IMG/VR virus record: IMGVR_UViG_3300042558_000825 | Span: 1-64,000 of that record | Length of the DNA stretch: 64,000 nucleotides | Reading direction: 5' to 3' (one strand) | Source: a virus | Part shown: positions 25,523 to 41,214 of the stretch, in pieces | How the letters are laid out: every line of letters starts with the position of its first letter | How positions within the stretch are numbered: the first letter of the stretch is position 1 | Program-made: the position numbers and the translations under genes | Notes under the pieces: generated by a model | What the model was told of the DNA's origin: nothing | What the model saw: the letters and a program-made list of their open reading frames with translations, nothing else | Databases searched by the model: none

Positions 25523-25527
25523 TTGAT

Positions 25528-25535: not shown

Positions 25536-25549
25536 ATCGTATAGTATTA

Positions 25550-26467
25550 TTAAATAATTCTTTTATGTTTCCACAAATCAATAGCCATGTCCAATCCGTC
25601 ATTTAAATTAACTTTTGGACTCCATCCTAATAATCGTTCTGCTTTTGCATGGGTAGAATTTAATACATATATCTCACCATCACGTTTTGGTTTAGTATTC
25701 CAATTAACTAAACCTTTCCAGTTCAACTTACTTGCAATCATATTAACTAATTCTTCAATTGTAACTGCATTGTCGGGTCCACAACAAAAGAATTCTTTAC
25801 GTGATTTATCTGGATTTGCTAGCACTGCTTCATATAAGTCTAGTAAGTCATCAATCCATAAAAAATTCCTATAGGGTTTTCCATACCCCAAATTAATTTC
25901 ATTTGGATTACTTAACATTTGTGTGATAATTTGCTCAACTACAAAGAAATCATTATCGTTTCTACCATATGTATTAGTCTGTCTTAATGCACAGAAAGGG
26001 AAGTTAAATGCCCTACCGGCATATTCTAAATAATGTTCACAAGCAAGTTTAGCTACAGCATACGGAGCATTGGGATGTTGTTTAGTTTCTTCAGTAAACA
26101 CTGGTAATACAAACTCTTTACCATGTTCAATTAAATCACTTTCTGGTTGCCATCCATAGGTTTCCATAGTAGAACTAAATAAAAATAATTCTAGGTTCTT
26201 AAGTTTTCTTGCACATTCAATAAGATTAACTGTGCCTACATAATTAATCTCGCTAAAAGTAATTTGTTCGTAAAAACTCTTTTCAACTTCTGTTCTTGCT
26301 GCCAAGTGTATAATCATGTCTGGATTAACTTCTTGCAAACGCTGGTCTACTTTTGCCAGCTCTAATAAATCACAACCCAAATCATATATTTCATATTTGT
26401 GTTGTAATCTTTTTTGTAGATATCCACCTATAAATCCACTAAGTCCCGTTACTAATACTTTTTTCAT
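25550..26467 (-). CDS. NAD-dependent sugar epimerase/dehydratase
   Basis: A 305-residue extended short-chain dehydrogenase. It has the NAD-binding GLSGFIG at 8-14, a conserved HLAAR at 54-58, SST at 98-100 and the catalytic YAVAK (Tyr136, Lys140). Length and motif order fit nucleotide-sugar 4-epimerases or 4,6-dehydratases (UDP-glucose or GDP-mannose type). It probably makes a sugar donor for the neighbouring transferase-like proteins. Its start overlaps the end of the 438-residue gene by 29 bases. The exact substrate cannot be told from the sequence. Confidence 0.88.
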   Translation of the reverse strand: MKKVLVTGLSGFIGGYLQKRLQHKYEIYDLGCDLLELAKVDQRLQEVNPDMIIHLAARTEVEKSFYEQITFSEINYVGTVNLIECARKLKNLELFLFSSTMETYGWQPESDLIEHGKEFVLPVFTEETKQHPNAPYAVAKLACEHYLEYAGRAFNFPFCALRQTNTYGRNDNDFFVVEQIITQMLSNPNEINLGYGKPYRNFLWIDDLLDLYEAVLANPDKSRKEFFCCGPDNAVTIEELVNMIASKLNWKGLVNWNTKPKRDGEIYVLNSTHAKAERLLGWSPKVNLNDGLDMAIDLWKHKRII

Positions 26468-27755
26468 TTTTTAATCCTTTTAAATAATTTTTAAATTCTT
26501 CTACCCTAGCAGACACATGATTTTTATTATGTGTTACAATATCAATCCATTCTTCCGACATTTTATTTAAATCTTTGTTTAAACATATATCTTTAACAAT
26601 TTCTGTTATACGATATACTCGGTGTGAATGATTAGTTATGGTATCATAATCTTCATCCCAAAATTTATCAAATGTTTTATACCCGGCTATCTTAATATGT
26701 TCTAATGCATGTGGCACCGATTGTAATATAAAAGGATGTTCATATAGCATAGCTCTGATAATCTTTTCTGTATAAAAAAATCCCGTTTTCATGTCGGTTG
26801 CTTCGTCAAATCTACTTTCTGATACAATGCTAAAATATGACCTGTCATAATATTCTGCTAAATTTTCTTTATTTGCAAATCCCATCCATGATCCGGTGTA
26901 CGTACTACGGTTTCTGTCTGTCAGTGCTGATTGGTCAAGAACGGATGGTTGCAAATCTATTTCATCAATAATCTTAATCCATTCTTCATTTTTATATGTA
27001 TGTTTTATATAGTCATTCAATGGTAAACTGGTTGAAGTGCTTTCGGCAGGAATTGATATAAACCCATACTTATTTAAATCTTCTTTTGTAAAAGTGACAT
27101 GTGACATCAATCTATCTAATGTGTATCGCCTAGCCAATTTAATAAATTTTTTATCTTTTTCACACTTAGTTGGGTGATACTGTGGTAATTTTTTTAGACT
27201 CCATATTTCAGCCATTGGCATATGTATTAAATTGTTTCTATATAATTCATTTAGTATTCCTAATATGTCCGGGTGAAATATAGAAGTTGACCATATATAA
27301 AAATCCCTACAGGTTCCAAATTCTTTCAGGAACAGATCAAATATTCTATTGATAACATCTATCTCACAATCAGCCCAATTATGCGAAATAATTATTTTAC
27401 ATTTTCCTTTTGTCCATAGTTCAATAATGTTTTTAGGGATATGTTCTATCCAAATTCCTCTACCACTTCCATAATACAATGATATTATATACTTTATATT
27501 ATGTTGTATGTTAATATTATAAACAATAGTTCCTTGTTCAGAGTAATAATCTATGTTATTTACAAGATCACTATGGTGAACATGCATATAATCTATTCCT
27601 AGTATTGCATTTATAGGTGAATCTGTAAAATATGTCATCCCTACCTTCATAGGAGTTTTGTAATAATGTGAGATATATTCATTGTGAGACATTCCCAACG
27701 AGTTGGGGATGGGTCCATGAGGACCATACTCATTAATTGCATAAATTAATTTCAT
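26439..27755 (-). CDS. Putative glycosyltransferase (438 aa)
   Basis: A 438-residue protein. Its C-terminal third has a pattern seen in GT-B-like transferases of phages and bacteria: SESRFDE ... FFYTEKIIRAMLYEHPFILQSVPHALEHIKIAGYKTFDKFWDEDYD, where the Glu/Lys pair would bind the donor nucleotide. The N-terminal half has no clear motif. It lies directly downstream of the 693-residue radical-SAM gene (ATG 1 base from its stop) and overlaps the epimerase gene. Classification is by pattern; the sugar and acceptor are unknown. Confidence 0.65.
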   Translation of the reverse strand: MKLIYAINEYGPHGPIPNSLGMSHNEYISHYYKTPMKVGMTYFTDSPINAILGIDYMHVHHSDLVNNIDYYSEQGTIVYNINIQHNIKYIISLYYGSGRGIWIEHIPKNIIELWTKGKCKIIISHNWADCEIDVINRIFDLFLKEFGTCRDFYIWSTSIFHPDILGILNELYRNNLIHMPMAEIWSLKKLPQYHPTKCEKDKKFIKLARRYTLDRLMSHVTFTKEDLNKYGFISIPAESTSTSLPLNDYIKHTYKNEEWIKIIDEIDLQPSVLDQSALTDRNRSTYTGSWMGFANKENLAEYYDRSYFSIVSESRFDEATDMKTGFFYTEKIIRAMLYEHPFILQSVPHALEHIKIAGYKTFDKFWDEDYDTITNHSHRVYRITEIVKDICLNKDLNKMSEEWIDIVTHNKNHVSARVEEFKNYLKGLKNEKSISNGT

Positions 27756-29837
27756 TTAACTTTTCTTTGAAATAGGGATGTCAGCACCACAACTGCATCT
27801 AACAGAATCACATATTACCGTTCTCAATAAACTATTCCAATCTATTTTCTTATGATCTTTTACATTACCAATAATACCACCCACTTCACAATTTCCTCGT
27901 TTAATGTGACCATACTGATGTATAAACATACTTTCAGTACCTATTGCACATCTAAAATCAAAGAAATTTGTTTGTCCTTTGTTAATCAGCATTTGCGGAC
28001 TATTAATTACTTCTGACGTACTATCTTCATATGTAATGACGGCATTACTTGAATATTTCCTAAACAAAGGATTAGTTTCTAATATTTTTACTGCAGTAGT
28101 TTTTGTAGCAACAGTTTTAAAATTCTTAAAAAATTCAGACTGTTCAGGTGTGTACTTAAGATCAACTAGCTTATTTTTAGAAGATCCATATTGGTCATCA
28201 ATGTACACTACTTCTAATCGGGCAGTAGTTTCATTCTTTATTCTATCAATAAACTCAATGCACTTATCCCAATATAACGGATCCATCATCAATCTAACAG
28301 TTACCATAGTTAAATTTGATGCTATCTTAACTTTTTCTATCCATTCATCTGCTGTATTATTTGGAAATTCTTGTGCTGGATGAAAGCTACAACCAGCATA
28401 TGATAGATATTTGAAGTTCTCCTCAATATAGCGTGGTGTCCTAGCTAGATTAGTAGTAATACCTATATATCCACCTAGAGTATGAATTTTTTTAACTAGG
28501 TCCGGGAAGAACGGGCTCAGTGTAGGTTCTCCTCCGCTTAGAGAAAACAATAATTTTTTATTTAAATTAAGTCCGTAGAATAAAAATAGATCGTCTAGAA
28601 ATGGTTCTACTACATCCCAATCAAATAAATGATTTTTACCTTCATGTAATACCGGAGGACAATATCTACAGCTATAGTTGCAAATATCATTTAATATCCA
28701 TGTAATTATAGCCCAACTTTCATTTTTTATTTCTATAATCTTTTTCCCTTGAAGTGGTAATGGGCCCTTCCAATGAGGGATCCTACTAGTAGTAGGATTT
28801 GTATAGGCTGCAGTCATCTGTGTGTCAGATACAATTTCCACAGATTTTACACTTGAAAAGGGAGTTAAATCCATTTTTAACCCGCCGGCATTTTTGTATA
28901 GGTCATCCTCTTGAACTTCATACAAATGACCAATTAATAAATATCCTTCTCTATTGCGATGGTCACCAAACTTCCATCCATGTTGTTCTAATCCTACTTT
29001 TTTAAATCTGTGATATTGTTTTGTTTTATAATCCGGAGTAGCATTGTCAGCACCTAATAATGCCATAATTTCATTTGACCAAGTAGTTTGTAGTACAACG
29101 GCATTTTCTTCTGCGGCGCGGGTGTCTTCATCTAATACAATATGAGAAATATTTTTTCCTAATGTGTTGTAACCTAATACCAAATCGCCAAATCTATAAT
29201 AAGGAAAAAACGATGCGCTATCTTCTTCTGTTATTTCATAATCTAGTCTAGGATCGTAACTCATCAATATATTAACATTTGAGAAGGTTGGTAAGTTATT
29301 ACGTTGTGGTATACTGGTATTAAAAAACATCTCTAACGTATGAATCGTATCATTCAACTGTAAAAAGGTCGTGTGAAATTCTTCATTAAATCGTATACCA
29401 GGCCATCGTACAGCTTGAGGATCGTCCTTATCTAACCGTTTCCATGCATCGTCCCACCAATTTTTAGATAATTTCTCAGCTAATCGGTTGCCATATATTT
29501 CATATTCTTCATGTAGATAATTAAGAGTATCTTGGTCTATTACTGTTGCCCGACGTATTTCTCTATCATAAAAACTATTTAAATAATCAATAATACGATT
29601 AATTTTGTCTATTTTGCCACGATCGGTCAGTGTATCTAACGTATATGTATTACTGCGGGAGAATTTGACACTTTTTTCTCTTATACGTTTTTCACTAAAA
29701 TTCATTTTTTCAAATGCTTTAACCCATTTTTTTGCTAATTCAGTTTCAAATAACCTGAAATATATATCATAGTGTTCCCATGTTGTAGGATTGACGAGGG
29801 TAATCCGTACATTTTTATCTTCTAGAAATCGTGCCAT
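27756..29837 (-). CDS. Radical-SAM protein with a novel N-terminal domain (693 aa)
   Basis: Residues about 372-690 are a radical-SAM enzyme: CNYSCRYC (Cys386, 390, 393) binds the 4Fe-4S cluster and SGGEP at 434-438 contacts SAM. Cysteines near the C-terminus (DFRCAIG, GNCEVGG, CDSVRCSCGAD) could bind auxiliary clusters as in SPASM proteins. Residues 1-360 form a large, charged domain I do not recognise. It heads a run of five radical-SAM genes with transferases. A TTGACA box and a late-like ATTAAATA inside an inverted repeat precede it, with TTAAGGAT as ribosome binding site. Likely modifies a peptide, sugar or nucleotide; substrate unknown. Confidence 0.82.
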   Translation of the reverse strand: MARFLEDKNVRITLVNPTTWEHYDIYFRLFETELAKKWVKAFEKMNFSEKRIREKSVKFSRSNTYTLDTLTDRGKIDKINRIIDYLNSFYDREIRRATVIDQDTLNYLHEEYEIYGNRLAEKLSKNWWDDAWKRLDKDDPQAVRWPGIRFNEEFHTTFLQLNDTIHTLEMFFNTSIPQRNNLPTFSNVNILMSYDPRLDYEITEEDSASFFPYYRFGDLVLGYNTLGKNISHIVLDEDTRAAEENAVVLQTTWSNEIMALLGADNATPDYKTKQYHRFKKVGLEQHGWKFGDHRNREGYLLIGHLYEVQEDDLYKNAGGLKMDLTPFSSVKSVEIVSDTQMTAAYTNPTTSRIPHWKGPLPLQGKKIIEIKNESWAIITWILNDICNYSCRYCPPVLHEGKNHLFDWDVVEPFLDDLFLFYGLNLNKKLLFSLSGGEPTLSPFFPDLVKKIHTLGGYIGITTNLARTPRYIEENFKYLSYAGCSFHPAQEFPNNTADEWIEKVKIASNLTMVTVRLMMDPLYWDKCIEFIDRIKNETTARLEVVYIDDQYGSSKNKLVDLKYTPEQSEFFKNFKTVATKTTAVKILETNPLFRKYSSNAVITYEDSTSEVINSPQMLINKGQTNFFDFRCAIGTESMFIHQYGHIKRGNCEVGGIIGNVKDHKKIDWNSLLRTVICDSVRCSCGADIPISKKS

Positions 29838-29849
29838 CTTAGATCCTTA

Positions 29850-29876
29850 ACTCACTGTGTATTTAATACACTGAGT
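29850..29876. repeat. Imperfect inverted repeat upstream of the 693-residue gene
   Basis: ACTCACTGTGTATT pairs with AATACACTGAGT apart from a two-base bulge. It surrounds a late-like ATTAAATA (29860-29867), and TTGACA lies at 29882-29887. It could be an operator, or a terminator for the upstream gene. Confidence 0.5.
29860..29867 (-). promoter_or_regulatory. T4-type late promoter (variant) in an inverted repeat
   Basis: ATTAAATA on the minus strand, 22 bases before the 693-residue radical-SAM gene. Confidence 0.45.
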
Positions 29877-29897
29877 GCTACTGTCAATTTTTTAACA

Positions 29898-30815
29898 TTA
29901 ATATTGGTTATTAATAGGATAGATTTTTGGCTTTTTGGTATCTGCTGTAATTAATTTATGTTTAGGGTTTGCCGAACACAATGCACATTGTGGTATATGA
30001 GTTTTTGAAATTAAATTGTTCATAAATTTATCTAATTTTTCACCACTCCAGTTATGTTCAGCGGGGGCATAACTATCTATTAACTCTTTTTGATTTGTAG
30101 TAAGTGTTACATGATACTGTTCCATAAATTTTGGTATTACTCCTATAGGAGCACATTTGTACAATTTGCCATCCATCATATGATGACAGTCTTGCATAAT
30201 ACAATTTTTAAAGGCTTCTTTAGGATCACTCTCATGTAGGGAAAATTCAGAATTTTCATATTTTAAACTACTATCTTTAAAATGCCATGAGGGGATTAGT
30301 CTAGATTGTATGTTATTACGGTCTGTATATCTAAACATGGTAACTGAATGATCTTCATTTAAACAATCATTCCATACTTTGTTACTATGAATTTCTTTTT
30401 TTATGTCTTTGTCTAAAAACGATTCTAAATTTGTAAACGCATTTACCCAAGTACTCGGATCATGATGACTAACGTCCAATCCAACCTTACCTTTATATTT
30501 TAAAATTTCTTGATACAAATTAGGAACGTAATTCAATCTTGTTCCGTTGGTTACAATAAGAATATTTGCATTAGGCCATAAGATTTTTAGGCCTTCAATC
30601 CATTTAAAAAGATCCGGATTGAGTAACGGTTCACCACCTATAATGCCAATAGTTCCTATAGTTAATATCTTTGACCAGTTACTGTATGCTTCTTTAGCAT
30701 CGTCCCAACGATGATGGCCTTTAAAGGCATAGTTATTAAATCTATTACAATCTGTACAATTTAAGTTACAAACGTGTGTAATATAAAATTCAGTGTAAAT
30801 TAAATGATGTTTCAT
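29898..30815 (-). CDS. Radical-SAM protein (305 aa)
   Basis: A short radical-SAM enzyme with CNLNCTDC (Cys16, 20, 23) close to the N-terminus and IGGEPLLNPDLF at 59-70. C-terminal cysteines (NCIMQDCHH, KLYKCAP and CALC) suggest an extra cluster-binding SPASM-like part. It reads TEFYITHVCN at the cluster site, typical of the family. A GTTAAATA late-like box and GAAGGAT precede it, and the leader carries a relic of another radical-SAM C-terminus (28-base repeat). Substrate unknown. Confidence 0.85.
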   Translation of the reverse strand: MKHHLIYTEFYITHVCNLNCTDCNRFNNYAFKGHHRWDDAKEAYSNWSKILTIGTIGIIGGEPLLNPDLFKWIEGLKILWPNANILIVTNGTRLNYVPNLYQEILKYKGKVGLDVSHHDPSTWVNAFTNLESFLDKDIKKEIHSNKVWNDCLNEDHSVTMFRYTDRNNIQSRLIPSWHFKDSSLKYENSEFSLHESDPKEAFKNCIMQDCHHMMDGKLYKCAPIGVIPKFMEQYHVTLTTNQKELIDSYAPAEHNWSGEKLDKFMNNLISKTHIPQCALCSANPKHKLITADTKKPKIYPINNQY

Positions 30816-30833
30816 TAATTTATCCTTCTTTAG

Positions 30834-30861
30834 TTGGAATCTTTTGATTCACATCTCTATT
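30834..30861 (-). repeat. 28-base direct repeat, copy 1 (leader relic)
   Basis: Identical to 32631-32658, where it encodes the end of a radical-SAM protein. Here the same frame would read NRDVNQKIP followed shortly by a stop, in the leader of the 305-residue gene. Confidence 0.9.
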
Positions 30862-30868
30862 ATTTAAC
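30861..30868 (-). promoter_or_regulatory. T4-type late promoter (variant)
   Basis: GTTAAATA on the minus strand, 45 bases before the 305-residue radical-SAM gene. Confidence 0.5.
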
Positions 30869-30887
30869 AGATTTATTTTTTTGTCTT

Positions 30888-31829
30888 TTAAATTTTAATT
30901 TTGATATGTTTAACAGGATTCCATTTAAAATCCCATTCTCTATTTTTTGTATGATATAGTACTGATCCAATACTGCTACTAGGGTCGCCTGGGTTAGGTA
31001 AACTCCATCTATATTTGAACAACGGTTCTACTACATTTTCATTTGCTCGGCTATTCATAGCACATCCACCCATATAAACTAAACAATCTGCACCTGTTAA
31101 CTGTACAGCTAATTGCATAACTTTACTTACTTCTATTTCAAAACGTTCTTGTACTGATGCGGCAAGGTCACATTGTTCTTCTGTGTGTAATATCCAGTCC
31201 TGCACACCTTTATGAAAATTATAATTTAATTTTAGCGTGTCCGAACCAAAATAATTAGATACTTGTATACGGAATCTTTTAGGATTACCCTGTTCTGCCA
31301 TTTGTTGTAATAAGTATTCGTCTTTAATTGGCGTTAATCCAACAAGTTGTGTAAATGCGCTATAGAATAATCCTAGACTATGTGGATAACCACGACTCCA
31401 TACTTTTTTCATTTCTCCGTGTTTTGCTTCCCAAATAGTAGCACATTCAAACTCTCCTATAGCATCTAGTACAACAACAGCACAATGATTAAAAGTACTA
31501 GTATAATAACCCGCAGCCGCGTGACTAGCATGATGTGGGGTATATCTTACAGGTGCATAATGTAATCTAGTTTTATTAAGATATCTTTTAGGAAGGACAT
31601 TCATATCTAATGCGGTATCATATTGACCGGCATAGACTTGTCTTGCTTTTTTAACCCAAGGTCTTTCATACCAAAAGATATTATTAGGAGCTCCGTAATA
31701 AAGTGCTTCTGTAATAACTGAAGTATCTAATTCATCTGTTGAGCAGTTATACCATGATTTAAGTTTGTTATTATTAAAAATAGCTAAACTTGAACCGTGA
31801 TTAAGAGCATTGATTCCCCAATGTATCAT
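30888..31829 (-). CDS. Carbamoyltransferase, N-terminal domain only (313 aa)
   Basis: Matches the N-terminal Kae1-like domain of NodU/CmcH carbamoyltransferases, which use carbamoyl phosphate and ATP to carbamoylate a sugar or natural-product hydroxyl. Visible motifs: HHASHAAAGYY (His99, 100, 103), VLDAIGE (about 121-126), GGCAMNS (254-260) and the nucleotide-binding GDPSSSIGSVL (281-291). Typical enzymes have about 550-600 residues with a second C-terminal domain that is absent here; the frame ends cleanly with KIKI and no downstream remnant. A partner protein or an altered reaction is possible. Its ATG overlaps the stop of the 37-residue gene. Confidence 0.83.
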   Translation of the reverse strand: MIHWGINALNHGSSLAIFNNNKLKSWYNCSTDELDTSVITEALYYGAPNNIFWYERPWVKKARQVYAGQYDTALDMNVLPKRYLNKTRLHYAPVRYTPHHASHAAAGYYTSTFNHCAVVVLDAIGEFECATIWEAKHGEMKKVWSRGYPHSLGLFYSAFTQLVGLTPIKDEYLLQQMAEQGNPKRFRIQVSNYFGSDTLKLNYNFHKGVQDWILHTEEQCDLAASVQERFEIEVSKVMQLAVQLTGADCLVYMGGCAMNSRANENVVEPLFKYRWSLPNPGDPSSSIGSVLYHTKNREWDFKWNPVKHIKIKI

Positions 31830-31939
31830 TTGTATATAAACGGATCTTGTTTACGTAATTCATCAAGACGGCGTTTGCGTTCTTGCCTTGCTTTATACCA
31901 CTTTAGTGGTCTTAAAATATAATAAAAAAATTTATTCAT
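31826..31939 (-). CDS. Small basic protein coupled to the carbamoyltransferase (37 aa)
   Basis: A 37-residue frame beginning MNKFFYYILRPLKWY and ending DPFIYK, with a run of Arg/Lys in the middle (RQERKRRLDELRKQD). It has a GGGGATA ribosome binding site and its stop overlaps the carbamoyltransferase ATG (ATGA). Hydrophobic start plus basic tail suggests a peripheral membrane or helper peptide. Similar tiny proteins beside phage carbamoyltransferases seem familiar, but I cannot name a family. Confidence 0.6.
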   Translation of the reverse strand: MNKFFYYILRPLKWYKARQERKRRLDELRKQDPFIYK

Positions 31940-31963
31940 AACGTATCCCCATAATAAAAGTTT

Positions 31964-32617
31964 TCATAGCGCCAATTCTTGTAATCCAGGTTGATAATTT
32001 AACACCAACTCAACTAATCTATTACCTACTTTTTTATTTAATTCTTCTGTAAAATGATTGCTATACTCATTTCCTACCAAAGACATATCAACTAGATTTT
32101 CTTTTACAGTCATACCGTTTTTAAATATATATCCATGATCAAAACACCGTAAGTGTATTACGCAGGGAATTTTATAAACTTCTACAAGATCATCTAATTC
32201 TTTAAACCAAGAAACCATTGCCCATTTACAATAATCACGGGACCAAAGTTCTTCATAGTATAATTGTCCGGCTTTAGCAATTGCAAGATTTTTTATTGGA
32301 TCAATGTGTGTTCCCTCAGGATTATAAAATTTACCATTCTGGACACTACGGGAAGTAAGCCCATAATCATAATCATTGGGTATCCTATTAGGTTCAGTAT
32401 GGCATAATAGTAATACTTTTGGTACATGTAATTGTAATTCCTTTAATAGTCGTTTGCGTACGCTCCACCAAGAAGCTCCGGCAAATCCATATCCTCGAGT
32501 TTTTTCATTGCTGTTGGATAATTTTTGAGAAACTATAAACGGCCAATGAGTCGGTAGTGATCGTAATTCGGCAAAACTATCACCTAAAATTAATATATCT
32601 TTATGTTCAAATTTCAT
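31964..32617 (-). CDS. SGNH-hydrolase-like protein (217 aa)
   Basis: A 217-residue protein with the family's GDS motif near the start (ILGDSFAEL; Ser14), a Gly-containing second block (GYGFAGASWW), and a C-terminal NEYSNHF where His could complete the catalytic site. The family removes or adds acyl groups on sugars and other substrates. The block III Asn is unclear. It lies between a radical-SAM and the carbamoyltransferase genes, so it could edit an acyl group on the pathway product. Confidence 0.65.
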   Translation of the reverse strand: MKFEHKDILILGDSFAELRSLPTHWPFIVSQKLSNSNEKTRGYGFAGASWWSVRKRLLKELQLHVPKVLLLCHTEPNRIPNDYDYGLTSRSVQNGKFYNPEGTHIDPIKNLAIAKAGQLYYEELWSRDYCKWAMVSWFKELDDLVEVYKIPCVIHLRCFDHGYIFKNGMTVKENLVDMSLVGNEYSNHFTEELNKKVGNRLVELVLNYQPGLQELAL

Positions 32618-32619
32618 TT

Positions 32620-33714
32620 TTAACCAATAATTGGAATCTTTTGATTCACATCTCTATTTTGAGAACCTATAAAATTAAGTTCTCCGCAAATTGCACTGCA
32701 TCTTTCCAATCTAATATCAGAATTAAAAGATTTGTCTAATATACTAAACCAAGGACCGTTTACAATATCATGCAATTTAGTGTGATGTATGTTAGCAAGA
32801 TGCTTTCCGCCAATTGTATCCCACATTGACTGCATCATATATTTATCTGAATGCGATTCTGCTTCTATTCCGTAAAGTCTATCTTGCAACCAACCACATG
32901 GAAATACATTACCGTCTGCACTTATATAAATATGATTTGTTTTCTGTGAATGGCACTCAACTATAGTATTACCAAGATATTGTTTTATAGACCCGTGTTC
33001 AGTTGCAATCTTCTTTTGGTCTACATAAATCATATTTTGATAATCTACATTAGTAGGTAATTCTAAATAGCGTTCTACTACACCTTGTTTATTTTTCACA
33101 GGCCATTGCATAATGAATTCGTGTTTCTTATTGAAGAATCTAGCTGTATATTTTACTCTAAATTCTTTGAAACCTAACTGACTACTTAATTCTCTCGCTT
33201 TATCAACTTGATGTTCATTGTGTCTAAAAATTATAAAATCCCATATAGCTGTGCCACCGTTGTCAATATATATTTTTACATTTTTTATTATCTTTTGCCA
33301 ATTAGTATCGACCCTATATAAATGGTTAGTATCTTCTAATCCATCTATACCGAAACCAATCCAATCTACATATTTGCCTGCTTCTTTCCAAAATGATTTA
33401 GTTTGTAAGCTGCCATTGGTATGCAACGCTACTACTAATTTGGGATTAACTTCTTTTAACCATTGACATATACGTATTAAATCTTTATTCATACAAGGAT
33501 CACCGTATGTTCCACAGAAATAAACTTCTTCTAATTGCTTAATAAACTCAACAGGTAATATAGATTTTGCTGTTTCTAATGTTACATTTATCAACGGCAG
33601 ACTTGATACAGTTGCGCCACCGTAATCATTACGGGGGCATTGCGGGCATCGTGCATTGCAATGAGTAGATATTTCCCACTCAATCTTTTTAATATTGTTA
33701 TAATTAAATGGCAT
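32620..33714 (-). CDS. Radical-SAM/SPASM-like protein (364 aa)
   Basis: Radical-SAM motif CNARCPQC (Cys19, 23, 26) and a C-terminal auxiliary-cluster region with IVECHSQ, FPCGWL and LERCSAICGE. This layout resembles SPASM enzymes that modify peptides or sugars. The last codons lie in the 28-base repeat shared with the leader at 30834-30861. The two bases between its stop and the next ATG, and a 11-base overlap with the 282-residue gene upstream, show a coupled operon. Substrate unknown. Confidence 0.85.
   Translation of the reverse strand: MPFNYNNIKKIEWEISTHCNARCPQCPRNDYGGATVSSLPLINVTLETAKSILPVEFIKQLEEVYFCGTYGDPCMNKDLIRICQWLKEVNPKLVVALHTNGSLQTKSFWKEAGKYVDWIGFGIDGLEDTNHLYRVDTNWQKIIKNVKIYIDNGGTAIWDFIIFRHNEHQVDKARELSSQLGFKEFRVKYTARFFNKKHEFIMQWPVKNKQGVVERYLELPTNVDYQNMIYVDQKKIATEHGSIKQYLGNTIVECHSQKTNHIYISADGNVFPCGWLQDRLYGIEAESHSDKYMMQSMWDTIGGKHLANIHHTKLHDIVNGPWFSILDKSFNSDIRLERCSAICGELNFIGSQNRDVNQKIPIIG
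32631..32658 (-). repeat. 28-base direct repeat, copy 2 (coding)
   Basis: The codons for NRDVNQKIP at the end of the 364-residue radical-SAM gene; identical to 30834-30861. Confidence 0.9.
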
Positions 33715-34552
33715 GTTCTAATAACCTTGAAATACAAACTCTATTTACTATACCACCTCGGTTATAATCACTGAATGAATTATCCCCTAAACCAAATATT
33801 ACACAATCTGTTTGTTGAAGATTGTGTGTTTCACATACAGTTTTATACGTTTTTCCATAAGTGTCCCAATTATAATCTGCAGAAAAAGTATTCATTAATG
33901 CTATTGCTAATTGCATAGGTATTTTTGGAGTCATATCTACAGAATTGTATATATCAATTCCATCATCATTGTCATATCGTTGATAACGTATTCCACAACG
34001 CAACCACTGAGCACCATCAAATGCTTTACTTAGACTAAAACAAATGGTATCAATACATGTATAATTCAAATTTAAATTGATATTCTTAGTTATAGGATAA
34101 TAGGCCATGTCTAATAATACAGGTATGCCTAAATCTTCACACTTATCTAGCAACGAGTTCAACTCGGTATGCATAGAACCGGTATCACTAAACGGTACTG
34201 ATATAATCAGTGCATCACCGATCATTAACTGCTCAGTATTTAGCCATTCCCAGTTGAGATTGTGTTTCATTGATGCTCGGTGGTACATGAACTCACCTTG
34301 AAAAAATCTAAAACGTAGTTTGTTATATTTTAAATAAAAATGATCAAATGCTTGAATAGTACCACTTATAAACTTTTTATTTGTGTAAGACTCTATGTTC
34401 TCTAAATGATTATTTTTACTAGCTTTGATCCATTTGTCAAACACATCAATATAAGTATCATATACACTTAGTGTGGCATCAGTTTTTGTTGAATTAATTA
34501 ATTTTACTACATGCTTATTTGGTACAGGAATAGCGTTCTTATTAAACATCAT
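33704..34552 (-). CDS. PLP aminotransferase-like protein (282 aa)
   Basis: A 282-residue protein with the core of a fold-type I pyridoxal-phosphate enzyme: VLLDMAYYP (Asp148, the residue that pairs with the PLP ring) and CFSLSKAFDGAQWLRCGIRY, with Lys176 as the probable Schiff-base lysine and Arg near the phosphate site. It is shorter than usual aminotransferases (about 380-420), so the small domain seems reduced. It lies between two radical-SAM genes. It could aminate a keto-sugar or amino-acid intermediate; activity and substrate are inferred. Confidence 0.65.
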   Translation of the reverse strand: MMFNKNAIPVPNKHVVKLINSTKTDATLSVYDTYIDVFDKWIKASKNNHLENIESYTNKKFISGTIQAFDHFYLKYNKLRFRFFQGEFMYHRASMKHNLNWEWLNTEQLMIGDALIISVPFSDTGSMHTELNSLLDKCEDLGIPVLLDMAYYPITKNINLNLNYTCIDTICFSLSKAFDGAQWLRCGIRYQRYDNDDGIDIYNSVDMTPKIPMQLAIALMNTFSADYNWDTYGKTYKTVCETHNLQQTDCVIFGLGDNSFSDYNRGGIVNRVCISRLLEHAI

Positions 34553-35804
34553 TTAAAATCCTATAGTAATCTGCATACAACTCAGCAAATTTGATAGGTC
34601 TAATAGAATCTAATTTATTGATATAGTCCATAAAAGCCGCGAACTTACTACTTTCATCAACACTATTCATGTATTCAATCTGAGATTTGATTCTATTTTT
34701 CCATCGTTCGTTGTTATTTAACTCAGTAAATGATTCCCAATGTTGAATAATTTTATTTTTAACTTGCACAGGTAATACAGTTGTAGACATATATTTAGGC
34801 CAATGAGTCGTACCAATGGACATTAATCCCTGGTTACGTTTACATATCTTTTTCCAATCGCGGCCTATAATACTTTGTGCAAAATCAGGTATATAATATA
34901 TATTCATGGCATGCACTGTGGTTAATAGGCTAACTACAATGTTATTTCCAGTTTCGTCTAACCTATCAAGATTTTTTGAAATTACATTCCAATCAGCAGG
35001 ATATCTAATGTAATCATTACGGGTACCCCAATCATCTAAACTAACCATGATTTCTACTTCTTTAAAGTTATTCCATAACTCAATAAACTTCTCATTCAGT
35101 ATAGTACCGTTAGTATGGTAACGTAATTCAATATTTTTGCTAGCACCGGACTCTACTAATTTAGTAATGAATCTTTCGTGGTCTTTAATTAATAATGGTT
35201 CACCGCCACCGAAGATAATATGTCTAATGTCACCTATAAACTCATCTAATGAATTTTGTGTTTCTAATCTTTCAAACCAATCAAAACAATCAGTAGTAGT
35301 GATACTATTTGCTTTGTACTGCCAATCTCCTTTAGCTTCATGGTTAACTAAAATAGTAGATAATTTCTTACTATCTTGTAGCCACTTACTACTATCTCTA
35401 GGACGACACATTACACATTGTAAGTTACATGTGTTTCCTAATCGTAAATCTAATGATAAGGGTTTGAAATCTACACTACCGTCTGGGTTAGTTGATGTGA
35501 TCAATTGTTCAATGTATTCAGTGCTTATTTTACGTTGCCATAAGCCATTTTCTATTATTCTATGACTTCTAATGCCACTAGCTTCTTCTTTCCAACAGCT
35601 ATTACATTGCGGTATCTTTTCACCGGCTAAAAATTTTAGTCTAGCGGATTTGAATTGTTCGCTGTTCCATACTTCACTGGGAGTTTGTTGATTAAGATTT
35701 AATCCAACCTCAGGTGATGCAATGCAACAGAGCGGTACATTGCCATCGTTCCAGCTAGCTAAATGAATCCAGGGCTGGATACAAAAGTTTTCGTTATCAA
35801 TCAT
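34542..35804 (-). CDS. Twitch-type radical-SAM protein (420 aa)
   Basis: The N-terminal about 75 residues hold a Cys-rich block (Cys8, CC at 26-27, CNSC at 67-70) of the kind usually C-terminal in SPASM proteins. The radical-SAM core follows, with CNLQCVMC (Cys126, 130, 133) and GGGEPLLIKD at about 207-216. This inverted order marks the twitch-domain radical-SAM family. A paralogue of the same order lies immediately upstream, and the two overlap by 8 bases. Substrate unknown. Confidence 0.86.
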   Translation of the reverse strand: MIDNENFCIQPWIHLASWNDGNVPLCCIASPEVGLNLNQQTPSEVWNSEQFKSARLKFLAGEKIPQCNSCWKEEASGIRSHRIIENGLWQRKISTEYIEQLITSTNPDGSVDFKPLSLDLRLGNTCNLQCVMCRPRDSSKWLQDSKKLSTILVNHEAKGDWQYKANSITTTDCFDWFERLETQNSLDEFIGDIRHIIFGGGEPLLIKDHERFITKLVESGASKNIELRYHTNGTILNEKFIELWNNFKEVEIMVSLDDWGTRNDYIRYPADWNVISKNLDRLDETGNNIVVSLLTTVHAMNIYYIPDFAQSIIGRDWKKICKRNQGLMSIGTTHWPKYMSTTVLPVQVKNKIIQHWESFTELNNNERWKNRIKSQIEYMNSVDESSKFAAFMDYINKLDSIRPIKFAELYADYYRILNDV

Positions 35805-37095
35805 TCATAAGCCCTGCTATTCTAGGGTCTAAATCTTTAATAGTTTGATTTCTATGTTGGTCAAGACTTAAGGTAAACGTCCTAAAGCGTTCTACTTCTT
35901 CTTTCCAATTTTCTGTTCTAGGTTGTTGCAATAATCCTATTATTCCGTTTAAACTATTCATGGTCATATGATTATGAACCTGCATATAATTATCTCTATA
36001 AGCAACTAACTCATCTAATGCTTCTTTTTTAAGTTCATTTGGTAATATATTTACATTTAAATGATGAGGATGAGTATTCACTAAAAAATCTATAAAGCTA
36101 TTTTTATTAAATTTGTTATTTAAATCCTCTACCCATTTAATGATGTTAACCAAATCAAACACATTATATACTTGTACTGTAGGGGTAATGCCTAAATGTA
36201 CATTTGGCATCTGTGCTAATTTTTCAATATTACTGCTAATCTGTGTCCAATCGCTAGGTGCACGGATATATTCATTTACTATACCCACACCGTCTAAACT
36301 AGCATTAATATTAACAGTATCAAACTGACTAATTAATTCTAAAAAGTTCTTATTGATATTGGTACAATTTGTATTGAAAAACAACACAATATCTTTTCTT
36401 CCCTGCTCAATACAACTTTTCATAAATTTAAAGTTGTTCTTAATTAATGTAGGTTCTCCACCAGTCATATACACTTTTTTAAGATGAGGGATCAGACTAA
36501 TAACTTGATCCCACATTATGTCATGGTCAAACCATTGTTGATCATCCATTACATTAGTAGGGAATTTACCAAATGTTTTTTTCCAAACATCCGTATATGC
36601 AGTATTATTCTCAGCAATTTCTATATGTTCTTTAAAAATTTGACTGCTATTCCAGGGATTGCACATCCTACATTTAAGATTACATAGATTACCTAATCTT
36701 AAATCTAGGTACACTAATTCGTCATCTAACTTGCCATCGTTTTTTATAGCTTGCTGAACCCGATCATTTAATTTTTCTTTGCCTAAACGCCATTGCCATT
36801 CGTTAATAGAATGCTGTCTATTACTAGTCCTACCATTTTCTTCTTGCATGTAGCAGACAGCACATCCTTCAATCTTATCACCGGCTATCATAGACTTACG
36901 AATGTTTTGCATATCTTTGCTATTCCATGCATCGTGTATGAAATTGTCTTTGCATGTATAAAATGATTTATTATCTTCTTTTTTTAATTTGTTATGTGAA
37001 CCTTTAACCATACAACAGTATCTAACCGTCGTATCAGTATTGACCATAATACTAACAAACGGGACAGCACAAAAGCTTTTATTATTTTTATCCAT
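35797..37095 (-). CDS. Twitch-type radical-SAM protein, paralogue (432 aa)
   Basis: Same layout as the 420-residue neighbour: N-terminal Cys block (Cys9, CC at 27-28, CAVC at 78-81), then CNLKCRMC (Cys138, 142, 145) and TGGEPTLIKNN. I chose the ATG at 37093-37095, which overlaps the stop of the upstream gene as TAATG and has GAAGG before it; a TTG two codons earlier would be an odd start. Tandem paralogues with matching architecture suggest successive steps on one product or two related substrates. Confidence 0.86.
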   Translation of the reverse strand: MDKNNKSFCAVPFVSIMVNTDTTVRYCCMVKGSHNKLKKEDNKSFYTCKDNFIHDAWNSKDMQNIRKSMIAGDKIEGCAVCYMQEENGRTSNRQHSINEWQWRLGKEKLNDRVQQAIKNDGKLDDELVYLDLRLGNLCNLKCRMCNPWNSSQIFKEHIEIAENNTAYTDVWKKTFGKFPTNVMDDQQWFDHDIMWDQVISLIPHLKKVYMTGGEPTLIKNNFKFMKSCIEQGRKDIVLFFNTNCTNINKNFLELISQFDTVNINASLDGVGIVNEYIRAPSDWTQISSNIEKLAQMPNVHLGITPTVQVYNVFDLVNIIKWVEDLNNKFNKNSFIDFLVNTHPHHLNVNILPNELKKEALDELVAYRDNYMQVHNHMTMNSLNGIIGLLQQPRTENWKEEVERFRTFTLSLDQHRNQTIKDLDPRIAGLMND

Positions 37096-38048
37096 TACCA
37101 ACCTTCAATCTTTCTAATTACATCCATCTCAGTTACTAAAGGACCACGATTGTATTTGTCTGCACCGTAATGACGTTTAAAAAATTTACTTTGCAGACTA
37201 TCCAATGTAGCCATTGGCAGTCCTAGTTTATCATGTAGTGCGGCTCCTAGTAACGCTGATTCACGCACAGGATTTCTATTTACATGTTCTTCCCACAATG
37301 TAATATAGTTATCAAACCATTGAACATTAGTGTGATCCCATTGAGTAAGCATGGTCATGTATGTGCCTAGACGTGCGCCGTATATTGCCCATTCACCGTT
37401 CTCAACATCCATACCAACATTATGCCATATGGTCAGATTGTCTAAGTTACGACTTGCTACTGTTTCTTTAAATTGATCCACAGTAGGACGAGCACCTCTA
37501 TCTAAACTCATCTTAACACCTTCACGAAAGCCGGCACGCCATGCTTGAAATGGTGTCATGTTTGGATATGTAGTTGAATAGCAATCCCACATTGCCCAAT
37601 ATAAATTGTCATCTCCGCCCATACAGAAGTCAGCAATACGTGATACGTCACCGTCTTTTTGATGTTCGTGTGTTTTCATATTGGCAACATATTCTTTAGT
37701 CCAACTACTCATGCCACCATTGCCGTAACGTAGTCCGTTAATGTTGTTAATTGCTTTCCAACGAAACTGTGCTCGTTTGAATGATTCATCCTTACCAGTA
37801 AAGTCTAACTGAATGTTGAAGAAACTTTCTTCTGGCATGTTGTCTCCGTCAATTAGAATAAAACGTTCGGTATCACTTGCTTCACCTGCGGCTTTATGTG
37901 CGGCGTCACTACCTTTAACACTATCAACACGTTTAGCCCATGGCACCATATTTTTTATTCTAAGCCAAAATTCTTCTTTTTGTGGTTCATCATAACTGAG
38001 GTAGATGCAGTCTAAATCGGCTACATCAACGATATCATCAGAGTTCAT
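37095..38048 (-). CDS. Glycosyltransferase-like protein (317 aa)
   Basis: A 317-residue GT-A-like protein. RFILIDGDN (about 62-70) supplies a DxD-type metal/nucleotide site, preceded by SVKGSDAAHKAAGEASDT and followed by NINGLRYGNGGMSSW and PFQAWRAGFREGVKM. Segments match the C-terminus of the 1381-residue protein, which lacks the DxD. It overlaps both neighbours by a few bases. It probably transfers a sugar; acceptor unknown. Confidence 0.72.
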   Translation of the reverse strand: MNSDDIVDVADLDCIYLSYDEPQKEEFWLRIKNMVPWAKRVDSVKGSDAAHKAAGEASDTERFILIDGDNMPEESFFNIQLDFTGKDESFKRAQFRWKAINNINGLRYGNGGMSSWTKEYVANMKTHEHQKDGDVSRIADFCMGGDDNLYWAMWDCYSTTYPNMTPFQAWRAGFREGVKMSLDRGARPTVDQFKETVASRNLDNLTIWHNVGMDVENGEWAIYGARLGTYMTMLTQWDHTNVQWFDNYITLWEEHVNRNPVRESALLGAALHDKLGLPMATLDSLQSKFFKRHYGADKYNRGPLVTEMDVIRKIEGW

Positions 38049-38364
38049 ATGTTTTTAATTTCCATTTAGTTATGTTATTATAAGGACTATCTACTACGAT
38101 ACTTAAATCTTCGCTTGCACATTTAGTACCATTGTCATCATGTATTAATTTAGACACAATCGTTCCTGTTCTATAACCGGCTATTTTGCCATCAATAACT
38201 TTGATGTCAGGCCTCCCTCGGGCATATGTGTCAGTATCTATTACAATATAGTTACCTTCAGGTTTTTCGCACGTGTAAAATAACACATTACCACGTTCAT
38301 CATAATATAATCTGAACTCGGGTTTAATGATAGGAGGAGCCTCCCAAATTATAAACTCTTCCAT
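38038..38364 (-). CDS. Unknown phage protein (108 aa)
   Basis: A 108-residue beta-rich protein (PEFRLYYDERGNVLFYTCEKPEGNYIVIDTDTYARG) with no signal peptide. It sits between transferase-like genes, overlaps the 317-residue gene by 11 bases and follows the 248-residue gene without a gap, so it belongs to the cassette. Conserved-looking but unnamed. Confidence 0.7.
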   Translation of the reverse strand: MEEFIIWEAPPIIKPEFRLYYDERGNVLFYTCEKPEGNYIVIDTDTYARGRPDIKVIDGKIAGYRTGTIVSKLIHDDNGTKCASEDLSIVVDSPYNNITKWKLKTYEL

Positions 38365-39111
38365 TTAATAACTTTCTAATATTTTATCACTAAATGTTTT
38401 AATATGATAGTGAAACGGATACTCTTGTGGATAAGTATTGATTCTAATTAGTTTTGGCAATACTTCATATACCAATGTTTTAGTCCAATCTTCACTGGGT
38501 ATACCATTTACATATTGTTTCATATGTATCATACTCATCTCATCAAAGTTGGGTAATGTGGTTTTTTCTACTCCGACAATATGACAAGCCATGGCATATA
38601 CCCAATCAGTTGATACTTCTTCATTAGGATTACATTTAATTATAGATTTATACTCTTCCCAATTCTCAAAAATATCTCTTACTATTGTGTAAAATAACTT
38701 TGCTGTTTCTGATTTTTTAAAATATGTTATACTATTATATGTGTCAGGCAGCATATTTTCATCAATGAATTTTCTATACACTCTAATGTCAGATAATTCA
38801 CCTTTAAAATTTCTGATTTTGGTTGAAACAACTACATCGTTAACATTTAATATCTCCCACCAGTGTTCAATACTACGTGGGATAATCATATCAGCTTCTA
38901 ATTTAATAGTTTCATCATAAGGACTACATTCATAAACTTGCCAATCATTGTGATAGCCTCCCAAATTACCATGTGGTAACATATCACTAGTGATAATGGT
39001 TACATTACTATTAGGCATAACCTTTTTGATGCTCAACTCTAATGCTTTAGCACAGTTAGTATAACTGATTTTATCAGTGTCTTGTGCCATTATTACAAAA
39101 CCTCTGGTCAT
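38365..39111 (-). CDS. Glycosyltransferase-like protein A (248 aa)
   Basis: A GT-A-like protein with SPYDETIKLEADMIIP at 63-78, where Glu-Ala-Asp takes the DxD place. The same SPYDETI block with a full DxD occurs in the adjacent 267-residue protein, so the pair are tandem paralogues. The altered DxD could mean a changed metal need or lost activity. ATG overlaps the upstream stop by four bases. Confidence 0.68.
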   Translation of the reverse strand: MTRGFVIMAQDTDKISYTNCAKALELSIKKVMPNSNVTIITSDMLPHGNLGGYHNDWQVYECSPYDETIKLEADMIIPRSIEHWWEILNVNDVVVSTKIRNFKGELSDIRVYRKFIDENMLPDTYNSITYFKKSETAKLFYTIVRDIFENWEEYKSIIKCNPNEEVSTDWVYAMACHIVGVEKTTLPNFDEMSMIHMKQYVNGIPSEDWTKTLVYEVLPKLIRINTYPQEYPFHYHIKTFSDKILESY

Positions 39112-39911
39112 GCTATTAACTCCATAAAATTACTTTTATTCATAACATGAAAATCCATATCTTTAACTGTTATATATTCTTTACGTATTTTACCACGTTG
39201 CCAACTATCATACATTACTGTATATTCAGTATTAAATTCTGTATCGTTGTTCCTATATATACTTGTGTTTTTTCCCACATGTACTAAGTTCCAGGGGATA
39301 ATGTCTCTTGTATTATCACTATGTCCATTTGCAATACGTAATGCAAGTGTTAGTGCATAGTCATTACGATATACTCCACCTACAAAACTGTGTATATCAC
39401 AATAATGGTCATAATTCTTTTGTACCATTTCTAAACATTCAAAAATTTGTTTAGCCCTATTTGTCTTTTTAAAGGTAACTGCTGTAGCCCATAATGTTTT
39501 AAAACTATATGCACTTAATACTTCCTGTGCTACCCCCGGTTGCATCAAATAACTAGTAGTATCATGGCAACAAAAGTCATCATATATGTTAAATGTTCTT
39601 AACAGTTTATCTGAATTAACCATATAATCAGTATCTAACAATATAGTTTCGTCATATGGACTAAGTCCATATGCTTGATATCTCCCTTTATTAATCCAAA
39701 TATCATGTTCACGTATGTTGTTTTTATCAGCATTAGTAACTATAACTTTGTCAAAGGTATATTGTTGTATAGAGGGTAGTGATTCTTCATCCGTAACTAG
39801 TGTTACTGGAAGATTTAAAAAATAATTAATGCGTTTAGCAGTAGCTACTGCCATTTTATAGTAATTGAACTTTGGGGAGTTAAACGCAAATAATATTGCA
39901 CCTTTGCTCAT
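39108..39911 (-). CDS. Glycosyltransferase-like protein B (267 aa)
   Basis: A 267-residue GT-A-like protein with SPYDETILLDTDYMV at about 84-98; Asp-Thr-Asp is a proper DxD site for metal-bound nucleotide sugar. A Trp/His-rich C-terminus follows. It overlaps the 101-residue gene and its paralogue by four bases each. Likely the first transferase of the cassette, using a sugar made by the epimerase; acceptor unknown. Confidence 0.75.
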   Translation of the reverse strand: MSKGAILFAFNSPKFNYYKMAVATAKRINYFLNLPVTLVTDEESLPSIQQYTFDKVIVTNADKNNIREHDIWINKGRYQAYGLSPYDETILLDTDYMVNSDKLLRTFNIYDDFCCHDTTSYLMQPGVAQEVLSAYSFKTLWATAVTFKKTNRAKQIFECLEMVQKNYDHYCDIHSFVGGVYRNDYALTLALRIANGHSDNTRDIIPWNLVHVGKNTSIYRNNDTEFNTEYTVMYDSWQRGKIRKEYITVKDMDFHVMNKSNFMELIA

Positions 39912-40213
39912 CGGTTAGTCTCTACTTCTTTCCATTCTTTATACCATTCTAACATAACTTTACTGTATGTCTCTTTTAGTAAAGATAGTAATTGGTCACG
40001 TTTAACTTGTACTGGATTATCAAAGTTATCAATAAGAATTACAAAGTTATCATCCATTGCATTTAAAAAGGCAATGAACTCAGGGGTAGCTTTCCAAAGC
40101 CCACCTTGTTCGGCAATGATAAATTTGCCATCGTATTTGTCTTTGAGTTGCGCTTTTGCGCTATTGTGATTGAAGCGGGCTTTAGCCTCGCTGATTAAGG
40201 TTTTGGTATCCAT
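39908..40213 (-). CDS. Unknown phage protein (101 aa)
   Basis: A 101-residue helical protein starting MDTKTLISEAKARFNHNSA. I chose the ATG at 40211-40213, with AGGAG five bases before it, over a GTG two codons upstream. A TCTAAATA late-like box lies 15 bases upstream. I believe relatives are common in T4-like marine phages, but no function is known to me. It leads the transferase genes. Confidence 0.75.
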   Translation of the reverse strand: MDTKTLISEAKARFNHNSAKAQLKDKYDGKFIIAEQGGLWKATPEFIAFLNAMDDNFVILIDNFDNPVQVKRDQLLSLLKETYSKVMLEWYKEWKEVETNR

Positions 40214-40228
40214 AAACACTCCTGAAAG

Positions 40229-40236
40229 TATTTAGA
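40229..40236 (-). promoter_or_regulatory. T4-type late promoter (variant)
   Basis: TCTAAATA on the minus strand, 15 bases before the 101-residue gene; AGGAG lies between. Confidence 0.5.
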
Positions 40237-40260
40237 TGAATACAGTACTGTTGTGAAATT

Positions 40261-41211
40261 TTAAGATCCTGAGCTGGTACCTGCAATTGAAATACTACCC
40301 CATGTATTAGAAAGATATGTTGTTTCCGGTGGTCTGACTGTGACAGTAGTTGCGGAGCCAGTTGTTACAGTTAATCCATTTGGTATTTCATCCCACACAG
40401 TATAAATTGTAATAATATTACCTTTATCTCCATTAGATCCAACCGTACCATTAGTCTTTACAAATATATTAATATTTGTACTTAGATAGCCGGCCGGGCC
40501 GGTTGAAGCTGTTTGATAAAATACATTTGCATTAGCAGTTGTCCAAGCATAGTAACCACTATTAGTACTAATAGTAGGTGTACTACCACCTCCACCTATT
40601 TTAGTTACACCATTGTACGATGTACCCGTAACAGTTACAGCACCCGAAGTAGGAGCACTCAATACTACCGTACCGACGTTACTAGCTAACCCGTTTAACA
40701 ATAAATTAATACCGGTGCCACTGGGATGTGTACAAGTAATTGCAAGTTGACCGCCTGAGTTAAAGAAGTATCTAGTTGCATCGCCATTGGCAAAAGTAAC
40801 AGTGTGTGTAAATGTAACTGCATTAATCCATGTACTGCCATACGTGGCAGTATTTGCAGTAGTTCCACTTTGTGATACTGCATTTAATCTGTTAGTGTAA
40901 ATTGTTTGTAAATTAGTAACAACGTTTGCGTTATATGTAATTGTATTTCCTGCAGAAGGTGCAGTGACACTAGTAATACTTGAGCTTTGATGTGACGCTG
41001 AGTTTGCAGTTTTAGTAATCAAATTAGCCCATTTTGCAGCGGTTACAGTATCACCGACAGCTACATTAGCCTCAGCCGTTTGTCCATACCCTGAGGCTGC
41101 AGAACCAATTGACCAAACTGCATTTAATGTATTAGCTGTAGCACCGGGCGATGCCCCCACAAAACCATTGTAGTCTGAAGCTTGGATTGTTCCATATTGT
41201 GCGTAACTCAT
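40261..41211 (-). CDS. Virion structural protein, beta-rich (316 aa)
   Basis: A Ser/Thr/Gly/Ala-rich 316-residue protein typical of phage tail or whisker proteins (starts MSYAQYGTIQASDYNGFVG; long beta-prone stretches such as LLLNGLASNVGTVVLSAPTSG). No signal peptide or catalytic motif. It follows the fibre protein at 41215 by a few bases (stop, then AAAGGAT and ATG), in the structural operon. Exact virion position unknown. Confidence 0.72.
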   Translation of the reverse strand: MSYAQYGTIQASDYNGFVGASPGATANTLNAVWSIGSAASGYGQTAEANVAVGDTVTAAKWANLITKTANSASHQSSSITSVTAPSAGNTITYNANVVTNLQTIYTNRLNAVSQSGTTANTATYGSTWINAVTFTHTVTFANGDATRYFFNSGGQLAITCTHPSGTGINLLLNGLASNVGTVVLSAPTSGAVTVTGTSYNGVTKIGGGGSTPTISTNSGYYAWTTANANVFYQTASTGPAGYLSTNINIFVKTNGTVGSNGDKGNIITIYTVWDEIPNGLTVTTGSATTVTVRPPETTYLSNTWGSISIAGTSSGS

Positions 41212-41214
41212 CTT

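Follow-up and report, generated by a model that had tools for sequence, protein, structure and literature searches.

A constant glycosyltransferase block and an exchangeable radical-SAM cassette beside appendage genes of a large T4-like phage: a candidate modification locus

What would a phage do with five radical S-adenosylmethionine (radical-SAM) enzymes lined up with genes for sugar chemistry? The question is raised by positions 25550-39911 of the window analysed here, a stretch of 64,000 nucleotides (positions 1 to 64,000 of the IMG/VR virus record IMGVR_UViG_3300042558_000825) that is part of a record of 109,530 bases from a large T4-like phage. An earlier note, made from the letters alone, had seen in this region a possible unknown modification pathway; our analysis supports the idea, with a glycan-type modification as its best reading. 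The locus turned out to be bipartite. A constant block (42402-37095), made of two appendage genes, u103, two GT8-like genes, u108 and a GT-A glycosyltransferase gene, is followed by a cassette of radical-SAM and accessory genes that is exchanged between phages at a fixed boundary.

The coordinates and gene calls of the earlier note hold. The genes of 25550-39911 are all on the minus strand and most of them overlap their neighbours by 4-29 bases, and gaps precede the genes of the carbamoyltransferase (134 bases), rS305 (72 bases) and rS693 (60 bases). The system reaches further on both sides, to 42402 in the constant block and to 21377 in a GT-A repeat protein. Two contigs from other metagenomes (L006 and L007) carry the same region with proteins that are 100% identical, and the region is thus no assembly artefact. 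It is worth pointing out that the record (G000), like nearly all the related ones, is a fragment of an environmental contig, and that the gene calls in the compared loci are mechanical open reading frames (ORFs). The baseplate-wedge protein has its closest counterparts, at ~30%, in jumbo phages, among them Sinorhizobium phage Phosso and the Erwinia phages pEa_SNUABM; no near-identical phage isolate of the record was found. The features of the constant block, ending with the boundary, are as follows (aa, amino acids).

41215..42402, minus strand: virion-appendage protein of 395 aa with a Peptidase_G2-like C-terminal part of the intramolecular-chaperone type, by homology to PA5oct gp359; candidate acceptor
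40261..41211, minus strand: u316, virion-appendage protein by homology to PA5oct gp360; candidate acceptor
40220..40260, minus strand: gap with the late-type promoter motif CTAAATAC before the u103-glycosyltransferase-radical-SAM operon, TAAATA lying 15 bases upstream of u103
39908..40219, minus strand: u103, a 103-aa protein
39108..39911, minus strand: GT8-1, GT8-like glycosyltransferase with a DTD motif, whose profile, joint with GT8-2, matches glycogenin
38365..39111, minus strand: GT8-2, paralogue of GT8-1 in which EAD replaces DxD (alignment and profile)
38038..38364, minus strand: u108, a 108-aa protein with 49-82% identity in close relatives
37095..38048, minus strand: GT-A glycosyltransferase with a DGDN motif, the final gene ahead of the boundary (model and Foldseek)
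37080..37095, no strand: exchange boundary, where DNA similarity to relatives ends (DNA alignments)

How constant is this block? A scan of IMG/VR with the GT-A protein gave at least 587 confirmed relatives, and the layout was counted in the best 80 of them (70 left at 90% identity), which are the closest relatives and not a random sample. Both GT8 genes and u316 lie upstream of the GT-A gene in all 66 testable non-redundant loci, accompanied by a 395-aa-type protein in 65 of the 66 and by u103 in 64. On the other side, a radical-SAM gene stands behind GT-A in each of the 65 loci with enough downstream sequence, and at least two such genes do so in 56 of them. Since the loci were picked by the GT-A gene alone, this order was not imposed by the selection. 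A first scan, for relatives of the radical-SAM protein TwiA, had found 76 phage loci whose neighbourhoods showed a recurrent order. A count of immediate neighbours covered 151 loci, grouped by DNA into 65 clusters: TwiA comes next after TwiB in 27 of the 65, rSN next after TwiA in 28, and GT8-2 next after GT8-1 in 19. A lack of co-conservation in phages, which the earlier note had named as a refutation, is thus not what we see; co-conservation is strong.

The same comparison shows where constancy ends. One relative (L244) has 81% DNA identity to the window over 44048-37080 and is unrelated beyond, and in five relatives (L244, L238, L241, L258 and L287) similarity stops at 37080-37093. For all 18 relatives in which the upstream 3.5 kb could be aligned (66-81% identity), only 0-1% of the next 3 kb aligns. 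The constant block could be aligned in 281 pairs, a few of the pairs being near-duplicates; 80% or more of the downstream 3 kb is shared in 63 of the 281 and under 5% in another 84. As some pairs share their cassettes and others do not, the cassettes are inherited for a time and swapped at times. The locus L014 has TwiB-TwiA in common with the window, while the cassette of L244 holds another radical-SAM protein, two twitch radical-SAM proteins and a relative of the 438-aa protein, together with a sulfotransferase-like protein and a nucleotide-sugar-dehydrogenase-like gene, both named by motif reading. Cassettes of relatives also hold Asp/Asn-hydroxylase-like, methyltransferase-like, carbamoyltransferase and nucleotidyltransferase-like genes. 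Three families often found in relatives (hydroxylase-like, GTMT451 and MT206) gave no match in the 109-kb record at the threshold applied, in a search that included the hydroxylase profile.

The genes on the constant side of the boundary point to the virion. The 395-aa protein matches PA5oct gp359 (33% identity, E 9e-47) and has weak Peptidase_G2 and virion-structural PHROG matches; u316 matches gp360 (29% identity, E 1e-12), and a 206-aa protein encoded upstream of the locus is homologous to gp357 (E 9e-34). The 206-, 395- and 316-aa genes stand in the same order as gp357, gp359 and gp360, and all three PA5oct proteins are flagged "ESI-MS/MS" (electrospray ionization tandem mass spectrometry) in the PA5oct record, a flag that we read as detection in virions. 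PA5oct has no glycosyltransferase or radical-SAM cassette behind its appendage genes. Between the baseplate-wedge and appendage genes of the window there is also an ORF of 6118 aa with internal repeats (43222-61578); PA5oct has an 11.6-kb structural gene at that place, a match by position only.

The glycosyltransferase calls at 37095, 38365 and 39108 have support from profile or model matches. GT8-1 and GT8-2 are paralogues whose alignment has a conserved SPYDET..LD.D stretch; neither has a Pfam match above cut-off, and their joint profile matches glycogenin (GT8) in the PDB over about 95 residues (E 6e-7). The model of the 37095 protein (pLDDT 82.8) finds GT-A enzymes in Foldseek (E about 3e-4, with low TM-scores); the matches include SunS, a peptide S-glycosyltransferase, and the capsid glycosyltransferase of PBCV-1. 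These model-based matches support a place in the GT-A fold class and do not support any specific reaction. The GT-A, GT8-1, rSN and u108 proteins have zero matches in 50,697 phage records, so no function can be transferred from an isolate.

On the other side of the boundary lies the cassette.

35797..37101, minus strand: TwiB, N-terminal-twitch radical-SAM protein (NF033640, 366 bits; CX3CX2C at 140-147)
34542..35804, minus strand: TwiA, N-terminal-twitch radical-SAM protein (NF033640, 368 bits)
33704..34552, minus strand: small pyridoxal-phosphate (PLP)-dependent aminotransferase-like enzyme (Lys176 and Asp148 invariant; 54% identity in L160)
32620..33714, minus strand: radical-SAM protein with a SPASM domain (PF04055 and PF13186 above cut-off; 51% in L160)
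31964..32617, minus strand: SGNH-like hydrolase with a GDS motif, by motif reading (52% in L160)
30888..31829, minus strand: degenerate carbamoyltransferase, N-terminal domain only (PF02543 alone)
29898..30815, minus strand: rS305, short radical-SAM protein of 305 aa (PF04055; its own TAAATA 51 bases upstream)
27756..29837, minus strand: rS693, fusion of an rSN domain (residues 1-360) and a radical-SAM part (365-692), with TAAATA 28 bases upstream
26439..27755, minus strand: 438-aa protein, recurrent in such cassettes (48% in L160)
25550..26467, minus strand: short-chain dehydrogenase/reductase (SDR) family nucleotide-sugar epimerase/dehydratase (PF16363 E 7e-41, PF01370 E 1.2e-39)
21377..25522, minus strand: 1381-aa protein, probably of the cassette, tandem repeats then a C-terminal GT-A-like domain, relative of GT-A at 37095

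The five radical-SAM proteins claimed in the earlier note are all there. They account for every PF04055 match of the record, all above the family cut-off, and lie within 8.4 kb (28278-36696), each with an intact CX3CX2C motif; two are of the N-terminal-twitch type, one has a SPASM domain, one is short, and one is the 693-aa fusion. TwiA and TwiB are clear members of NF033640, whose curated cut-off is 170 bits and was reached in none of 14 control genomes, although the name of this subfamily model states no reaction. An N-terminal Cys is invariant in both alignments. Phage contigs can hold up to 17 NF033640 matches, and the cultured Vibrio phage K566 (255 kb; L082 19977-27716) has six twitch radical-SAM matches, several of them clustered. 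In four related phage contigs (G010, G011, G012 and G014) one twitch copy carries an in-frame TGA at the same place, as in G012:C1:33266-34327, which could be read-through, recoding or a broken gene. TwiB-TwiA pairs also occur, at 36-41% identity, in chromosome-like Bdellovibrionales contigs (L088-L107), and in two of these (L088 and L089) a full-length carbamoyltransferase lies a few kb away. The neighbours of these pairs (Lon-like, patatin-like, NifS-like and GT2-like, named by sequence reading) vary from genome to genome, and no function common to them emerged. Predatory bacteria are a possible origin of, or second use for, the pair.

Fusions are a recurrent feature of these families. The rS693 protein exists elsewhere as two neighbouring genes, rSN and rSC, and in its fused form in 7 clusters; in L048 the rSN domain is joined instead to a hydroxylase-like domain (PF05118, by a score obtained for a different phage protein that shares its motifs). 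The GTMT451 family is found fused to a hydroxylase-like domain or to a radical-SAM protein, and in L165 and L166 a GT-A-like domain related to that of the 1381-aa protein is fused to a twitch radical-SAM protein. The rSN model is usable (pLDDT 79) and has no PDB match below E 1e-3. The set of rSN, hydroxylase and GTMT genes has no relatives among phage isolates; two marine contigs carry a minimal form of it, rSN then a hydroxylase-GTMT fusion, among recombination-type genes (L210 7950-11001; L230 6680-9663).

For the accessory genes, the most telling relative is a 356-kb phage contig (L160) that holds rSN with rSC, the 438-aa protein, the SPASM radical-SAM protein, the PLP enzyme and the SGNH-like protein together at 45-54% identity, and this joint recurrence is the pattern of a shared pathway. 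Nucleotidyltransferase/cupin-like and 2-oxoglutarate-oxygenase-like genes, named by motif reading, lie between them in L160. Taken singly, these genes are of uneven standing. The nucleotide-sugar epimerase/dehydratase of the earlier note is solid by its two family matches. Its aminotransferase-like enzyme has retained both the Schiff-base Lys and the Asp, but scores under the PF00155 cut-off and has a weak PDB aminotransferase match (E 0.0012). The SGNH-like hydrolase has its motif, with GDSF conserved in two sequences, but no profile or family match above cut-off. In the carbamoyltransferase the N-terminal PF02543 domain is real, but the protein is a degenerate half: relatives of 475-496 aa have PF16861 as well, which the window copy does not, and the HDAS and HAERYS-type motifs that they keep have been lost. 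No remnant of the YrdC-like C-terminal domain was found anywhere in the window, so that the protein falls outside the NodU/TobZ type. With the C-terminal domain and the N-terminal motifs missing, the protein is predicted to be probably inactive on its own.

The 438-aa protein has no informative family match and a PDB match at chance level only; it is perhaps a glycosyltransferase. The 1381-aa gene probably belongs to the cassette. In its product a unit of 60-70 aa (FDFSWHPD..PYIYQFG), which resembles a stretch of the protein's own C-terminal GT-A-like domain, is repeated in tandem about ten times, and fewer times in relatives.

When might these genes be expressed? The hexamer TAAATA occurs in 16 of the 26 intergenic gaps of 1186-39908, against 3.8 expected and a maximum of 8 in 500 shuffles, and the gaps include those ahead of u103, rS305, rS693 and the 1381-aa gene. 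The motif CTAAATAC precedes u103 also in L244 and L014. The late promoter of T4 is TATAAATA. Because TAAATA resembles T4 late promoters, it suggests by analogy that the cassette operons are expressed late; the strict T4 late motif itself was dropped as a candidate, being under-represented (4 found versus 18 expected). A second promoter class, sigma-70-like sites with 11/12 matches, precedes genes 2880, 3459, 4724 and 12422, and gene 3459 also has a distant TAAATA. Scans of 24500-43300 for sigma-70 sites and terminators gave no excess over shuffles.

Based on these observations, we propose a two-part modification locus, in which the phage would decorate the appendages of its tail with a glycan or a related group, to be tailored in different ways by different cassettes. 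At a late stage of infection, an appendage protein (u316 or the one of 395 aa) would receive, soon after its synthesis and still in the cytoplasm, a short glycan assembled by the three soluble glycosyltransferases. Enzymes of the cassette (SDR, PLP and radical-SAM) would make or alter the sugars, or the residues to which they are attached, by radical chemistry. A swap of the cassette at the end of the GT-A gene would then alter the decoration and leave the builder and the acceptor unchanged, and a varied decoration could plausibly serve changes of host recognition or escape from recognition. We are about evenly divided between belief and doubt in this proposal. A more pointed form of it is put forward more tentatively: a widespread phage system with a switchable chemical coat, whose scaffold would be made on the tail appendages by the three constant glycosyltransferases and rewritten by the swappable radical-SAM set, with serotype-like variation of the particles. 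Comparable sets beside tail or baseplate genes in the cultured phages Mosig and CP220 speak for an appendage target. Several points weigh on the other side. The product, the modification of the virion and the enzyme activities are predictions from the genes, and a neighbourhood of tail genes by itself is no proof that the tail is the acceptor. The sets of rSN, hydroxylase and GTMT genes are also found among recombination genes of marine contigs, not near tail genes; and because TwiB-TwiA pairs occur in varied, non-phage-looking contexts of Bdellovibrionales contigs, these enzymes can act outside virions.

If not the virion, the acceptor could be the host envelope, with the lipopolysaccharide core or another surface glycan being modified during infection and superinfection by rival phages being blocked. 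This has been proposed for the glycosyltransferases in the host-recognition cluster of pelagimyophages (PMC7029224). The enzymes suit the tailoring of glycans, and soluble glycosyltransferases can work on lipid-linked core sugars at the membrane; the pair TwiB-TwiA, which lies beside a GT2-like protein in the Bdellovibrionales contigs L092 and L094, can evidently be cellular. Membrane proteins are where the idea runs into difficulty. Judged by hydropathy only, proteins with more than one membrane-like segment are missing from the cassette families and a single one of 303 neighbours has four such segments, which is unlike an O-antigen conversion or export locus and disfavours an exported polymer, and there is no flippase, polymerase or polyprenol-linked membrane enzyme within or near the cassettes. 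The fixed linkage to virion genes and the late-type motifs also suit an early change of the host less well. We regard the host surface as an unlikely target, though the next one to be considered after the virion appendages, with DNA last.

A direct modification of protein could coexist with the glycan model. Here the radical-SAM, PLP, hydroxylase-like and methyltransferase-like enzymes would act on an appendage protein, or on u103 or u108, by side-chain chemistry or by chemistry like that of ribosomally synthesized and post-translationally modified peptides, with sugars added at these sites and rSN serving as the adaptor that binds the substrate. In the PDB, TwiA comes closest to the peptide maturase SkfB, SunS is among the GT-A fold matches, and the joining of rSN to a radical-SAM protein in 7 clusters and to a hydroxylase-like domain in L048 is as expected of an exchangeable adaptor. 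Yet rSN has no fold match, which makes the adaptor role a guess; the gaps of the cassette are too small for an unlisted same-strand precursor gene of more than ~45 aa; and the SDR, as well as the nucleotidyltransferase-like and dehydrogenase-like genes of relatives, indicate sugars. As the principal activity of the locus, we find protein modification rather improbable. A hypermodified DNA base is the least likely product, and a very improbable one. Radical-SAM, PLP and carbamoyltransferase enzymes of phages are indeed known from DNA hypermodification. Glycosyltransferases of phages can also have DNA as their target (Pyle et al. 2024, cited in PMC12619734). However, the carbamoyltransferase is degenerate here, the constant partners are virion genes, and a thymidylate-synthase-type hydroxymethylase is absent from G000 and from 13 of the 16 records searched, most of which are fragments.

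How much of a variable, appendage-linked glycan locus is already known? The Campylobacter phages CP220 and CPt10 encode 11-12 radical-SAM proteins each, and the central part with five of them, which differs between the two, was termed an interchangeable module and read as host metabolism (PMC2853527). CP220 is similar to the window in having its radical-SAM set near baseplate-type genes and two nucleotide-diphospho-sugar-transferase genes, and the SPASM enzyme of the window has a 24% match in these phages; they differ in having no match to the constant GT8-GT8-GT-A block and in having an amidinotransferase. Pelagimyophages carry a hypervariable host-recognition cluster of tail fibres, glycosyltransferases and radical-SAM cassettes, read as modification of the host O-chain (PMC7029224). 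The locus of the window is like this cluster in layout, not by descent: both are variable, adjoin tail genes and combine glycosyltransferases with radical-SAM enzymes. A constant glycosyltransferase block with a fixed exchange boundary is not described for the pelagimyophages. In the cultured Pelagibacter phage Mosig EXVC030M (L321, 52443-72952), a radical-SAM gene annotated MoaA lies beside the tail fibres in a set with carbamoyltransferase, aminotransferase, epimerase and Asp/Arg-hydroxylase genes, whereas the GT-A, GT8 and rSN proteins have no match in it. A marine T4-like genome resembles the record in being a T4-like phage with many radical-SAM genes; its 12 such genes were discussed as users of iron-sulfur clusters, with no pathway or layout (PMC5332604). 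That virus-encoded glycosyltransferases can modify virion proteins is known from mycobacteriophages (Freeman et al. 2023, cited in PMC12619734) and from the PBCV-1 capsid, with no mention of radical-SAM tailoring or exchangeable cassettes in the part of the source available. The earlier note had named the system as its best candidate for an undescribed one. In the open-licence literature searched, we found neither a function proposed for the radical-SAM arrays nor a description of a constant glycosyltransferase block that ends at an exchange boundary, but clusters of radical-SAM genes in phages had been reported before (PMC2853527, PMC5332604, PMC7029224). The kind of region is thus already known, and the system itself may well be new.

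Phage genomes rich in radical-SAM genes have been a puzzle since at least 2010 (PMC2853527). The layout of a constant and a variable part gives this puzzle a handle, in the form of a likely acceptor (the appendage proteins), a boundary for the cassette and cultured phages with comparable sets. If the proposal is true, virus particles would owe part of their diversity to radical chemistry, and many uncharacterised sugar- or protein-modifying enzymes would be added to those at hand.

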